DNA of 34,005 nucleotides, from NCBI GenBank assembly GCA_021803575.1, contig JAJZLH010000060.1:1-34005 (forward strand), read 5' to 3'. Position 1 is the stretch's first letter. Each line of letters begins with the position of its first letter. Source of the stretch: Bacillota bacterium. GTDB taxonomy: Bacteria > Bacillota > Sulfobacillia > JAJZYS01 > JAJZLH01. A model generated the notes under the pieces. That model saw only the letters and a list, made by a program, of their open reading frames with translations, did not search any database and was not told where the DNA came from. Both the position numbers and the translations under genes were made by a program. Positions 29,170-33,508 of this stretch are shown here, in pieces.

Positions 29170-29180
<11 letters not shown>
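28767..29180 (+). CDS. DUF1003-like membrane protein
   Basis: 137 residues from GTG 28767, with AGAGGTGG about 4-6 nt upstream. Two predicted membrane helices (about 35-57 and 69-91) separated by RFDPAPAF, and a C-terminal coiled coil (EYDHETVTEMKSQLAAILAKLEAL). The pattern of N-terminal PVNIQHQERLRPLDRAA, helix, FDPxPF-like loop, helix and QNLQ...EYD matches the DUF1003 family, whose function is unknown. Divergent from thrS; its stop overlaps the ABC-F stop by 11 bp, tail to tail. Confidence 0.85.
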
Positions 29181-30969
<1,789 letters not shown>

Positions 30970-31080
30970 GGGTACCTCCCGGCGGCAGCTGCCGCAATCA
31001 CTTGAAGCCGATCGGCGTCCCGACCAGACGACAAGCCGTCTCACCTCGGTGATAGCAGGAAAAGGGCGCGCTTGCCCCTT

Positions 31081-31110
31081 TTAGCCCGCCGACACCTCAG
31101 TGAGACGCAT
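31081..31110 (-). CDS. Putative 9-residue leader peptide of the ABC-F gene
   Basis: ATG 31110 behind GAGAGGGGA (about 6-nt spacing), encoding MRLTEVSAG and a TAA stop, 111 bp before the ABC-F start. It begins about 25 nt after the predicted transcript start. A 7-bp hairpin (31060-31066 with 31076-31082) overlaps its stop codon. Micro-ORFs of this kind control several antibiotic-resistance ABC-F genes by ribosome stalling. The coding call rests on position and ribosome binding site only. Confidence 0.45.
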   Translation of the reverse strand: MRLTEVSAG

Positions 31111-31141
31111 GGGAAGTCCCCTCTCCACCTCTTCAGGTTGA

Positions 31142-31170
31142 AGCATAGCGAAGCCACTTCTGGGTTGCAA
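31142..31170 (-). promoter_or_regulatory. ABC-F gene promoter
   Basis: Minus-strand TTGCAA (31165-31170) and TATGCT (31142-31147) with a 17-bp spacer, 4 of 6 matches each. Back to back with the rsgA promoter: the two -35 boxes are 9 bp apart. Confidence 0.55.
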
Positions 31171-31177
31171 ATCCTCT

Positions 31178-31208
31178 GCTTGCGCAGATGGCAAGCGGCG
31201 TCTACACT
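31178..31208 (+). promoter_or_regulatory. rsgA promoter with inverted repeat
   Basis: TTGCGC (31180-31185) and TACACT (31203-31208) with a 17-bp spacer. A perfect 6-bp inverted repeat GCTTGC / GCAAGC (31178-31183 and 31191-31196) covers the -35, a possible operator. The 9-mer TGCGCAGAT (31181-31189) recurs inverted at 31366-31374, next to the rsgA ribosome binding site. Confidence 0.5.
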
Positions 31209-31240
31209 ACCGGCACGGAGTGCTGGAGGAGGTGGCGTCT

Positions 31241-31306
31241 ATGGCCCGGGTGCTGACCGTGTCTGGAGCGCGCCTCTCTGGCCTCGCAATCCGGCCTGGG
31301 GACTGA
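31241..31306 (+). CDS. Putative 21-residue leader peptide before rsgA
   Basis: ATG 31241 with a near-perfect GGAGGAGGT 7 nt upstream, about 25 nt after the predicted transcript start. The peptide begins MARVLTVSGARL and ends AIRPGD, then TGA. It is followed by a strong terminator (31323-31362) and then rsgA, the classic order of an attenuator. No family is recognised. CCTCC at 31314-31318 could pair with its ribosome binding site. Confidence 0.5.
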   Translation: MARVLTVSGARLSGLAIRPGD

Positions 31307-31322
31307 TAAGTCGTCCTCCGCT

Positions 31323-31362
31323 CGGGCGCTGCGCTGGAAGGCGCGGCGCCCGTTCTTGTTTG
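31323..31362 (+). terminator. Intrinsic terminator between micro-ORF and rsgA
   Basis: 12-bp stem: CGGGCGC (31323-31329) with GCGCCCG (31346-31352), extended inward by TGCGC with GCGCG, loop TGGAAG, followed by TTCTTGTTT. It lies 30 bp before the rsgA start and after its promoter, so it would stop rsgA transcription unless read through. Confidence 0.75.
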
Positions 31363-31391
31363 CGCATCTGCGCAGGAGGAGGCTCCACCGC

Positions 31392-32465
31392 TTGGATCTC
31401 AGGAATCTTGGACTTACAGCGCCGCTAGCGGCCCAGTTCGCTCTCAGCGGGCAGGACACCCACCGCCTCGGCCGGGTGATGACGGTGACCGGCCAGGCCT
31501 GGCTGGTCGGCTCGGAGCGGGGTGAGCAATTGGCCCAGATCTCCGGCAAGCTTGGCCACCTGGCAGCGGAGGACCCATCCCGCCTGCCGGTGGTCGGTGA
31601 CTGGGTGGCCCTCCGCCGCCACACCGGCACCCAGGCCGTGATCGACTGGGTGGTGGAACGCCGGCATACCCTCAGCCGACCCGACCCGGAACGGCCTGGC
31701 CGGACGGAGGTCCTGGTCTCTCACGTCGATGCCGCCTTGATCGTGATGGGGCTCGATTTCGACTACAACCTGCGCCGCCTGGAGCGCTACCTGGCCATGG
31801 TCCGCACCAGCGGCGCCGAACCGGTGGTGGTGCTGACCAAGGCGGACCTGGTCCAGGACTGGCGGCCGCTGGCACTGGCCGCCGCTGAGGCGAGCGGCAG
31901 CTGTGCCGTCCACGCCGTCTCCGCCCTGAGCGGCGAGGGCATGGCAGAACTCAGCGCCCACCTCGACTCGCTGCCCACCGTGGTCCTGATCGGTTCGTCC
32001 GGCGCCGGTAAGTCGACCCTGGTGCAAGCCCTGACTGGAGAGAAAGGGATCGCCACGGCCCCGACCCGCGCCGCGGACGGCCGCGGCCGTCACACCACAG
32101 TGGGCCGCCACCTCCACCCCAGACCCGGCGGTGGCTGCCTGATCGACACGCCAGGTCTGCGCTCGGTGGCAGTGGCGGCTCGTGCCGACCTGGCCGACAC
32201 CTTTGGTGAGATCGAGCGGCTGGCTCGGGCCTGCCGCTTCTCTGACTGTCAGCATCAAGGTGAGCCCGGCTGCGCAGTGGGCGCGGCGCTGGCCACAGGC
32301 GTCCTCAGCGCCGAGCGGCTCGGCGCCTGGCGCAAACTGGAACGGGAGGTGCGCCGTCAGGACGCCAAGCAGGACTCCGAGCTGCGGGCCGCTCTCCGCC
32401 AGCAAAACCGCCAGCGGGCGAAGCAGATCCGCAGCGAGTTGGAGGCTCTGCCCAAGCGCCGCTGA
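31392..32465 (+). CDS. rsgA: Ribosome small subunit GTPase RsgA
   Basis: Circularly permuted GTPase that checks late 30S assembly. 357 residues from TTG 31392 (MDLRNLGLTA), with AGGAGGAGG 9 nt upstream; an in-frame TTG at 31356 is inside the terminator. N-terminal OB fold (about 25-100), then G4 LTKADL (148-153), G5 VSALSGEG, G1 GSSGAGKST (201-209), G3 DTPG (252-255), and a zinc finger Cys281, Cys286, His288, Cys294. The basic C-terminal helix (RQDAKQDSELRAALRQQNRQRAKQ region) is typical of the subgroup with an LG start motif. Possibly controlled by the upstream attenuator. Confidence 0.95.
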   Translation: MDLRNLGLTAPLAAQFALSGQDTHRLGRVMTVTGQAWLVGSERGEQLAQISGKLGHLAAEDPSRLPVVGDWVALRRHTGTQAVIDWVVERRHTLSRPDPERPGRTEVLVSHVDAALIVMGLDFDYNLRRLERYLAMVRTSGAEPVVVLTKADLVQDWRPLALAAAEASGSCAVHAVSALSGEGMAELSAHLDSLPTVVLIGSSGAGKSTLVQALTGEKGIATAPTRAADGRGRHTTVGRHLHPRPGGGCLIDTPGLRSVAVAARADLADTFGEIERLARACRFSDCQHQGEPGCAVGAALATGVLSAERLGAWRKLEREVRRQDAKQDSELRAALRQQNRQRAKQIRSELEALPKRR

Positions 32466-32479
32466 GGACGCCCAAGGAA

Positions 32480-33508
32480 TCAGGTGGCGCTGGCCTCGGC
32501 CTCCCCCGCCGCGCCGTCCACCAGGCGGCGGAGCCTCTCCAGCTCGTCTCTGGTGCCGCTCACGAACAGGTGGTCACCCTCGGTCAGGGGCCGGTCCGGG
32601 TCGGGCGGCACATTGAGCAGCCCGCCGTGCTCCACGGCCACCACCACGATCGACGGCCCGTTGTCGCGGCGCAGGTCGCGCAGGGACATCCCCCGCACCG
32701 GCGACTTAGCCGCCACCGCCAGGTCTACCAGGTCGAAGCCGTGCTCCCACAGCCAGGACGAGTCGATCAACTCGGCCGAGCTGGGCTGGAGCGTGAGGCG
32801 GGCCAAGCGGCGGCCACCGATGCGGGTCGGCACCACCACCCGGCTCGCCCCGGCCAGGAGCAGCCGGCGCTCGGAGGCGGCATTCTCGGCCCGGGCTGTG
32901 ATCACCAGGTGAGGGTTCAACTCGCGGGCTGCCAGCACCACATACAGGTTCTCCGCATCGGAGGGCAGTGCCGCAATCAGGCCATACGCCTCGGCCACCG
33001 CCGCCGCCTGCAGGGTCTCCTGCTCGGCGGCGTCGCCCTCGATCACCTGAAAGCCGCCTTGCACCAGCTCCAGGCAGCGCTGCGGATCCGACTCAATGAT
33101 CACTGCGCCCACCCGGCCCAGGCCGGTCACTTCCTCGGCCGCCCGCTGCCCCACCCGGCCGCCGCCGGCGATCACGATGTGCCCCTGCATCCGCCTCACC
33201 CGCCTCTCCATGCGCCGCCTGCCCCAGGCGGCCTGCAGATCCCCGCCCACCAGGTATCCGGTCAGGGTGCCGACGGTGTACAGGCCCACCGACACACCGC
33301 CCAGGGCCGCGAACGCAGCCAGGAGGAACTGGGCGGCGGTGTGCGGCGCCGGTGCATCGGCCCCCACCGTGGTCATGACCATAATCGCCATGTAGAAGGC
33401 CTTGACCGCACTGACCCGGTAGAGGGCTGCGAAGAAGGCACTGCTGATTGCGACCAGCACGACCAGCAGCACCAGTGCCTCGGCCAGCCTGCGCTGGGCC
33501 TTGTTCAT
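32480..33508 (-). CDS. Two-helix ion channel with RCK/TrkA domain
   Basis: 342 residues. TM1 about 9-30, pore helix and filter 38-52, TM2 about 59-88, then an RCK_N Rossmann domain (GHIVIAGGGRVG, 109-120) and a TrkA_C domain from about residue 255. Layout is that of MthK/Kch-like potassium channels gated by a ligand at the RCK ring. The filter reads TTVGADAP rather than TVGYGD or TVGFGD, so ion selectivity is in doubt. ATG 33508 with GGGGGTGA upstream. It converges on rsgA, 14 bp apart. Confidence 0.9.
   Translation of the reverse strand: MNKAQRRLAEALVLLVVLVAISSAFFAALYRVSAVKAFYMAIMVMTTVGADAPAPHTAAQFLLAAFAALGGVSVGLYTVGTLTGYLVGGDLQAAWGRRRMERRVRRMQGHIVIAGGGRVGQRAAEEVTGLGRVGAVIIESDPQRCLELVQGGFQVIEGDAAEQETLQAAAVAEAYGLIAALPSDAENLYVVLAARELNPHLVITARAENAASERRLLLAGASRVVVPTRIGGRRLARLTLQPSSAELIDSSWLWEHGFDLVDLAVAAKSPVRGMSLRDLRRDNGPSIVVVAVEHGGLLNVPPDPDRPLTEGDHLFVSGTRDELERLRRLVDGAAGEAEASAT

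Follow-up and report, generated by a model that had tools for sequence, protein, structure and literature searches.

In Listeria monocytogenes, the HflX paralogue HflXr (lmo0762) is encoded behind a short-ORF attenuator, in the leader rli80, and acts beside the ABC-F protein Lmo0919 (PMC6310831). The resistance ABC-F gene msrD is preceded by the leader uORF msrDL, which stalls at its stop codon (PMC10314930), and VmlR is reported as a resistance ABC-F with an attenuating leader (PMC9226507). In Escherichia coli, generic ribosome stalling on toiL, the uORF of topAI, unmasks the downstream ribosome-binding site (PMC12121999), and in Streptomyces coelicolor one of two RsgA/EngC paralogues is reported to be WblC- and tetracycline-dependent (PMC7157823). 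A search of the openly accessible literature found no report tying RsgA to a leader ORF. Here we describe a locus on a 34,005-nucleotide stretch of a Bacillota genome (the whole stretch is hereafter called the window) in which an rsgA gene and an ABC-F gene diverge from one another, each behind a short uORF. Comparative and folding analyses make it likely that the window holds two back-to-back ribosome-mediated attenuators, which would induce the RsgA protein and, in this genus, the ABC-F protein together under translation stress.

An RsgA paralogue divergent from an ABC-F gene

RsgA has been studied as a housekeeping GTPase of 30S maturation. The rsgA gene of the window (31392-32465, plus strand; TTG start at 31392) encodes a 357-aa protein that belongs to this family, scoring 129.1 with TIGR00157 (cut-off 100) and 146.6 with Pfam RsgA_GTPase (cut-off 30), with the GTPase motifs TKAD, GSSGAGKST and DTPG and the zinc-site Cys/His cluster CRFSDCQHQGEPGC all intact. 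That it is the housekeeping orthologue was rejected because its branch is split from housekeeping RsgA with 100/100 tree support and a different contig of this genome (G000:C44) encodes a further RsgA; the initial annotation had missed this paralogue status. We coined the label RsgA2 for this long, patchily distributed paralogue, which occurs in 21/145 genomes at the level of the class and in 61/299 at that of the phylum. It is also found in Actinomycetota, Cyanobacteriota, Pseudomonadota and other lineages, the breadth outside Bacillota being drawn from about a dozen loci (plasmid-collection matches plus six named genomes). Judged by its family, its biochemical role is presumably that of an RsgA protein. 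At least on the Lysinibacillus fusiformis plasmid pMGMM7, rsgA2 adjoins a resistance gene, being located directly upstream of fosM (fosfomycin resistance; L157:2495-4017). At another locus (L148, genome G016), a sequence that by eye resembles a selenocysteine tRNA, with anticodon TCA, is located shortly upstream of the rsgA2 leader. In the window itself, the gene convergent with rsgA2 (32480-33508, minus strand) ends with its stop 14 nt from that of rsgA2 and encodes, by eye, an ion channel-like protein with a TrkA-type nucleotide-binding part.

The ABC-F ATPase gene occupies the minus strand (29170-30969) and encodes 599 aa from an ATG at 30969, with the Shine-Dalgarno (SD) GGGAGGT directly upstream; all three genomes of the genus retain this start and SD region. 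The protein scores 283.6 against the ribosomal-protection model NF000355, under the cut-off of 380, and is thus not classed as an antibiotic-resistance (ARE) ABC-F. Its closest solved relative by sequence is YheS.

Between the two genes, the initial annotation had placed two divergent promoters with 17-bp spacers, 9 bp apart, and the sequence bears out these coordinates, with the 17-nt spacers kept in relatives. The minus promoter, which would serve the ABC-F leader, reads TTGCAA-17-TATGCT (−35 at 31165-31170 and −10 at 31142-31147, in plus-strand numbering), and the plus promoter of the rsgA2 leader reads TTGCGC-17-TACACT (−35 at 31180-31185, −10 at 31203-31208); the 9 bp separate the two −35 boxes. 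By consensus alone both are unremarkable in the window genome, where 0 sites pass a consensus scan. The other two genomes of the genus (G001 and G002) have TTGACC-17-TAGACT as plus promoter, a site that does pass (0.1 expected), whereas on the minus side all three genomes share the −10 TATGCT and the 17-nt spacer. The divergent ABC-F/rsgA2 pair is also kept in G001 and G002 with a spacer of 423-435 bp. Both uORFs, their spacing and the terminator described below are kept in 3/3 genomes, and it is on these three genomes only that conservation of the window's own leaders is judged.

Two leaders of different construction

The plus-strand leader contains what had been noted at the outset, a 21-codon ORF with a near-perfect SD followed by a strong terminator and then rsgA. 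The uORF (31241-31306, plus strand; peptide MARVLTVSGARLSGLAIRPGD) follows its SD AGGAGGTG (31227-31234) at 8-nt spacing, and this SD is also part of a predicted anti-antiterminator strand. The predicted antiterminator 5′ strand lies within the uORF (31268-31280; partner at ~31336-31345), and a small hairpin, GACT-GATA-AGTC, with one compensatory pair among the three genomes, is located at the uORF stop (31301-31312). Next come the anti-SD TCCTCC (31314-31319), complementary to the rsgA2 SD, and an intrinsic terminator (31323-31359), which comprises a 13-pair stem (31323-31352) and the U-rich tail TTCTTGTTTG. The terminator is kept in the three genomes, among which its stem shows a compensatory C-G to U-A double change. 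The rsgA2 SD, AGGAGGAGG, is at 31374-31382. This arrangement, a short ORF with its own SD between promoter and terminator upstream of rsgA2, is that of ribosome-mediated transcription attenuation of the rli80/hflXr and msrDL type, and the second hallmark of such systems, mutually exclusive terminator and antiterminator folds set by ribosome position, is predicted in silico.

In G001 and G002, the plus uORF has the same start position and SD spacing as in the window and contains 18 codons (peptides MTKVGSWIQSRPLASVSD and MAAVDCSIQSRPSVSASD), a 1-nt indel having shifted the frame of its second half. The check proposed in the initial annotation, in-frame conservation of this micro-ORF, thus turned out mixed: the ORF, its SD and its stop are kept in the three genomes, and the peptide frame is changed. 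The position of the uORF and the RNA structure are conserved in the genus despite the change of peptide. Because the peptide is unconserved, the leader is unlikely to sense through one particular peptide and would have to respond to a generic event.

We folded the leaders as truncated transcripts, using equilibrium energies and an assumed 30-nt ribosome footprint placed at successive codons. For the plus leader, folded with 8 nt of the terminator 3′ arm transcribed, a ribosome at codons 1-5 gave antiterminator values of 0.78, 0.83 and 0.88 in the three genomes, compared with ~0 at codons 9 and 13, and 0/60 shuffles in each genome matched this switch. In two of the three genomes some antiterminator forms even with no ribosome present, and the static complementarity of the antiterminator strand is, taken alone, only marginally above chance (0.04-0.11). 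In a broader switch test the window genome scored 0.36, a value that 0.10 of shuffles matched (not significant) and that is lower than those of the other two genomes of its genus. Once complete, the terminator prevails at equilibrium in every case; the switch would depend on kinetics during transcription.

The 9-codon minus-strand ORF reported to precede the ABC-F gene is likewise present (31081-31110), encoding MRLTEVSAG in the window and MRLIEVAAG in G001 and G002; it has the same length in all three genomes and is conserved in frame. Located ~110 nt downstream of it is the ATG at 30969, the true ABC-F start, which the first reading had overlooked together with a hairpin at the uORF stop. 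This hairpin, AAAAGGGGCAAGCGCGCCCTTTT (31060-31082, minus strand), overlaps the stop, forms the inner part of a long hairpin that is possibly a weak terminator and is kept in the three genomes. The segment GGGGACTTCCC, positioned just before the uORF start (31111-31121), is complementary to the ABC-F SD region GGGAGGTACCC (30970-30980) and is predicted to pair with it, which would mask the SD unless a ribosome occupies the early codons. Indeed, in the folding analyses the ABC-F SD accessibility is 0-0.16 with no ribosome or a late one and 0.42-0.60 with a ribosome at codons 1-3. Shuffling the 5′ segment abolishes the switch, with 0/40 shuffles reproducing it in each genome. In G001 and G002 both pairing sides differ from those of the window, and SD masking is kept in a shifted register. 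An ABC-F SD that is masked and then freed by a ribosome on the uORF is, as predicted in silico, the hallmark of ribosome-mediated translation attenuation of the ermC and toiL type. The +X+ arrest motif (e.g., RLR) is absent from MRLTEVSAG, MRLIEVAAG and the three plus peptides, and peptide-specific macrolide arrest was ruled out on this ground.

The initial annotation had joined the two leaders into a shared ribosome-stress switch. A common trigger is plausible, since both leaders respond in silico to a ribosome held at the first uORF codons, but the two genes do not physically share a switch: each has a leader of its own with its own predicted mechanism, antitermination for rsgA2 and SD unmasking for the ABC-F gene.

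Leader ORFs and ribosome position across RsgA2 genes

Among 96 deduplicated RsgA2 upstream regions, a strong-SD uORF, defined as 8-32 codons behind a near-perfect SD, is present before 42, compared with 2.4 in shuffles (maximum 6) and 0 in antisense; about half of the RsgA2 genes lack one under this strict rule. The SD spacing is ~8 nt in many RsgA2 lineages. Strong terminators precede 26/96 genes (0.35 in shuffles), and uORF and terminator occur together in 10/96 regions (0.05 in shuffles). When relatedness is allowed for, uORFs are found in 17-20 of 54 protein clusters (65% identity). Only 2 of 104 ABC-F control upstream regions contain a strong-SD uORF, which argues that method bias does not cause the RsgA2 enrichment. 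The same count led us to reject the idea that ABC-F genes in general have a leader ORF; this feature is specific to the window's genus. The ABC-F/RsgA2 pair was also rejected as a widespread module, the pairing being seen in the window's genus only, with no ABC-F gene within the flank of about 0.8-2.5 kb of the other RsgA2 loci examined. From these sequences, leader-ORF control of the RsgA paralogue appears to be widespread and its pairing with ABC-F confined to one genus. In a small RsgA subclade on the housekeeping side (L011, L012), some genes also have a strong-SD uORF. This third subclade, nearer to housekeeping RsgA, comprises L011/L153 (G025), L012 (G038) and L152 (G041), where strong-SD uORFs are followed by terminators.

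The RsgA2 leaders show two designs. In the terminator type, to which the window leader belongs, the order is uORF, 13-34 nt, terminator, SD and gene. The Clostridia type (17 leaders) has no U-run and contains instead a three-way SD/anti-SD/SD switch, formed by GGGGAGGT in uORF codons 13-15, CCTCCC roughly 5-14 nt past the stop and the gene SD, GGGAGG or AGGAGG; CCTCCC can pair with only one of the other two segments at a time. In the uORF peptides of this type, GEV corresponds to the SD-like RNA segment GGGGAGGT read in frame. We therefore rejected the idea that the conserved motif EIVxxGEV acts as a signal through the peptide: GEV is encoded by GGGGAGGT, which is needed to pair with CCTCCC, and this RNA constraint accounts for the motif at least as well. 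RNAalifold gave no informative covariation on the Clostridia alignment, in which MAFFT had placed the anti-SD out of register. In another phylum, at L161 (Nonomuraea gerenzanensis) and L241 (N. jabiensis), the uORF SD region TGATCGAGGAG is complementary to CTTCTCGATCA, which immediately precedes the rsgA2 SD, within about the last 123 nt before rsgA2. These leaders have the SD-to-SD design of the window's ABC-F leader.

In the ribosome-position folding test, most of the leaders tested are predicted to be ON with a ribosome at codons 1-5 and OFF once it advances, far above shuffles. For the Clostridia type, the mean accessibility of the gene SD falls from 0.55-0.68 with the ribosome at codons 1-5 to 0.01-0.02 with it at codons 11-15, and the mean switch over the 17 leaders is 0.62, with a shuffle-round maximum of 0.05. 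The 19 terminator-type leaders have a mean switch of 0.32 (shuffle maximum 0.09), clear in 12 and not clear in 7; outside the window's genus the mean is 0.28, versus 0.08 in shuffles. Two terminator-type loci, L217 and L223, carry the short uORFs MKDELTMVVVG and MKKVYELVIVG at a distance of 54-64 nt from the terminator; a ribosome at early codons does not switch them, so that their geometry must differ. RNA structures differ between lineages and the ribosome-position logic is retained; in these folding models, differently built leaders share one logic, being ON while ribosomes are held at the earliest codons. Given the variation in early codons and peptides, what the leaders report is probably stalling in general rather than one drug via one peptide. 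By analogy, the RsgA2 and ABC-F leaders probably sense generic stalling as toiL does.

Proposed mechanism and relation to described systems

Anatomy, conservation, lineage-wide enrichment, alternative folds and dependence on ribosome position were computed, and the mechanism proposed here builds on them. What goes beyond them is inference: that the uORFs are translated, that termination and antitermination take place in cells, which signal induces the system and how RsgA2 acts. In the plus leader, transcription would start at about 31215 and the uORF would be translated. When ribosomes run through, the antiterminator strand would be covered or folded back onto the uORF SD region, so that the terminator (31323-31352) forms and rsgA2 is off. 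Ribosomes held at codons 1-5 would instead cover the SD/start strand and release the middle of the uORF, which could capture the emerging terminator 3′ arm and allow RNA polymerase to continue into rsgA2. In the minus leader, the ABC-F SD would be masked by the segment just before the uORF start, and a ribosome at codons 1-5 would cover this segment and free the SD by translation attenuation; the hairpin at 31060-31082 may contribute transcription attenuation. Both RsgA2 and ABC-F would thus rise whenever translation stress detains ribosomes at early codons, and the best-fitting inducers would be inhibitors of initiation or early elongation. RsgA2 would then resemble HflXr as a ribosome-handling factor that can be induced.

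Other explanations were weighed against these data. The uORFs could be real and yet only insulate or tune basal expression, with the terminator limiting read-through, the uORF coupling translation and no induced state. The poor peptide conservation agrees with this, as does the fact that the switch is supported by in silico folding alone; however, ribosome-tied exclusive pairings recur with different sequences in unrelated leaders, above shuffles, and we regard basal tuning as unlikely. Somewhat less probable still are leaders that sense a metabolite or an amino acid (by riboswitch, T-box or trp-type attenuation) and contain short ORFs incidentally. Terminator/antiterminator anatomy is common to all those classes, but neither the window leaders nor those of 20 related loci match Rfam at gathering thresholds, on which ground riboswitches and T-boxes were rejected. 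In addition, near-perfect uORF SDs at about 8-nt spacing occur in many lineages, no run of a single amino acid is common to the early codons, and structures vary by lineage whereas the ribosome-position logic stays. Finally, the plus uORF could be a chance ORF, with the terminator merely ending stray transcription and rsgA2 driven from elsewhere. The failure of the window-genome promoters in the consensus scan would fit such an arrangement, yet nothing promoter-like passes the scan between the terminator and the rsgA2 start, three genomes retain the promoter, the SD spacing and the terminator, and the same element order recurs across lineages, making a chance ORF very improbable.

Under the attenuation mechanism, a wider reading can be put forward tentatively, as a possibility that we hold with some reserve: RsgA2 may be an unrecognised, widespread, stress-inducible ribosome factor, switched by unrelated leader designs that sense first-codon stalls. 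It would serve to protect small subunits, or to recycle them, under a block of initiation or early elongation, and in this genus a divergent pair of attenuators would co-induce it with ABC-F. A large RsgA2 family behind ribosome-sensing leaders suggests repeated recruitment of a maturation enzyme against translation inhibition, as of HflX in HflXr. It offers a testable function for the second RsgA copy of many genomes, predicts stalls at codons 1-5 as the inducing stress and yields a set of natural leaders that differ in design but follow a single logic.

Among described systems, HflXr/rli80 of Listeria appears to be the nearest. Both involve a paralogue of a housekeeping ribosome-associated GTPase, a short ORF, a terminator, an antiterminator, an anti-antiterminator and an ABC-F partner. 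However, the window has RsgA in place of HflX, its uORF lacks an RLR motif, its ABC-F gene is divergent and adjacent, and its switch is a prediction from folding. As with MsrD and VmlR, a short uORF or attenuating leader precedes the window ABC-F gene. In contrast to these proteins, the window ABC-F scores under the ribosomal-protection cut-off and its uORF peptide is unrelated. Moreover, msrDL stalls at the stop codon, whereas unmasking of the window ABC-F SD is predicted at codons 1-5. Like toiL, the ABC-F uORF is predicted to unmask a downstream ribosome-binding site, but the targets of toiL are a toxin-antitoxin operon and Rho termination rather than RsgA or ABC-F. The S. coelicolor RsgA/EngC copy resembles the proposed RsgA2 in rising under a ribosome-targeting antibiotic. 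Unlike the window gene, it is described as being under the control of a transcription factor (WblC/WhiB7) rather than of a cis leader, and it may or may not be an RsgA2. By analogy, it lends independent support to the existence of stress-inducible RsgA copies.
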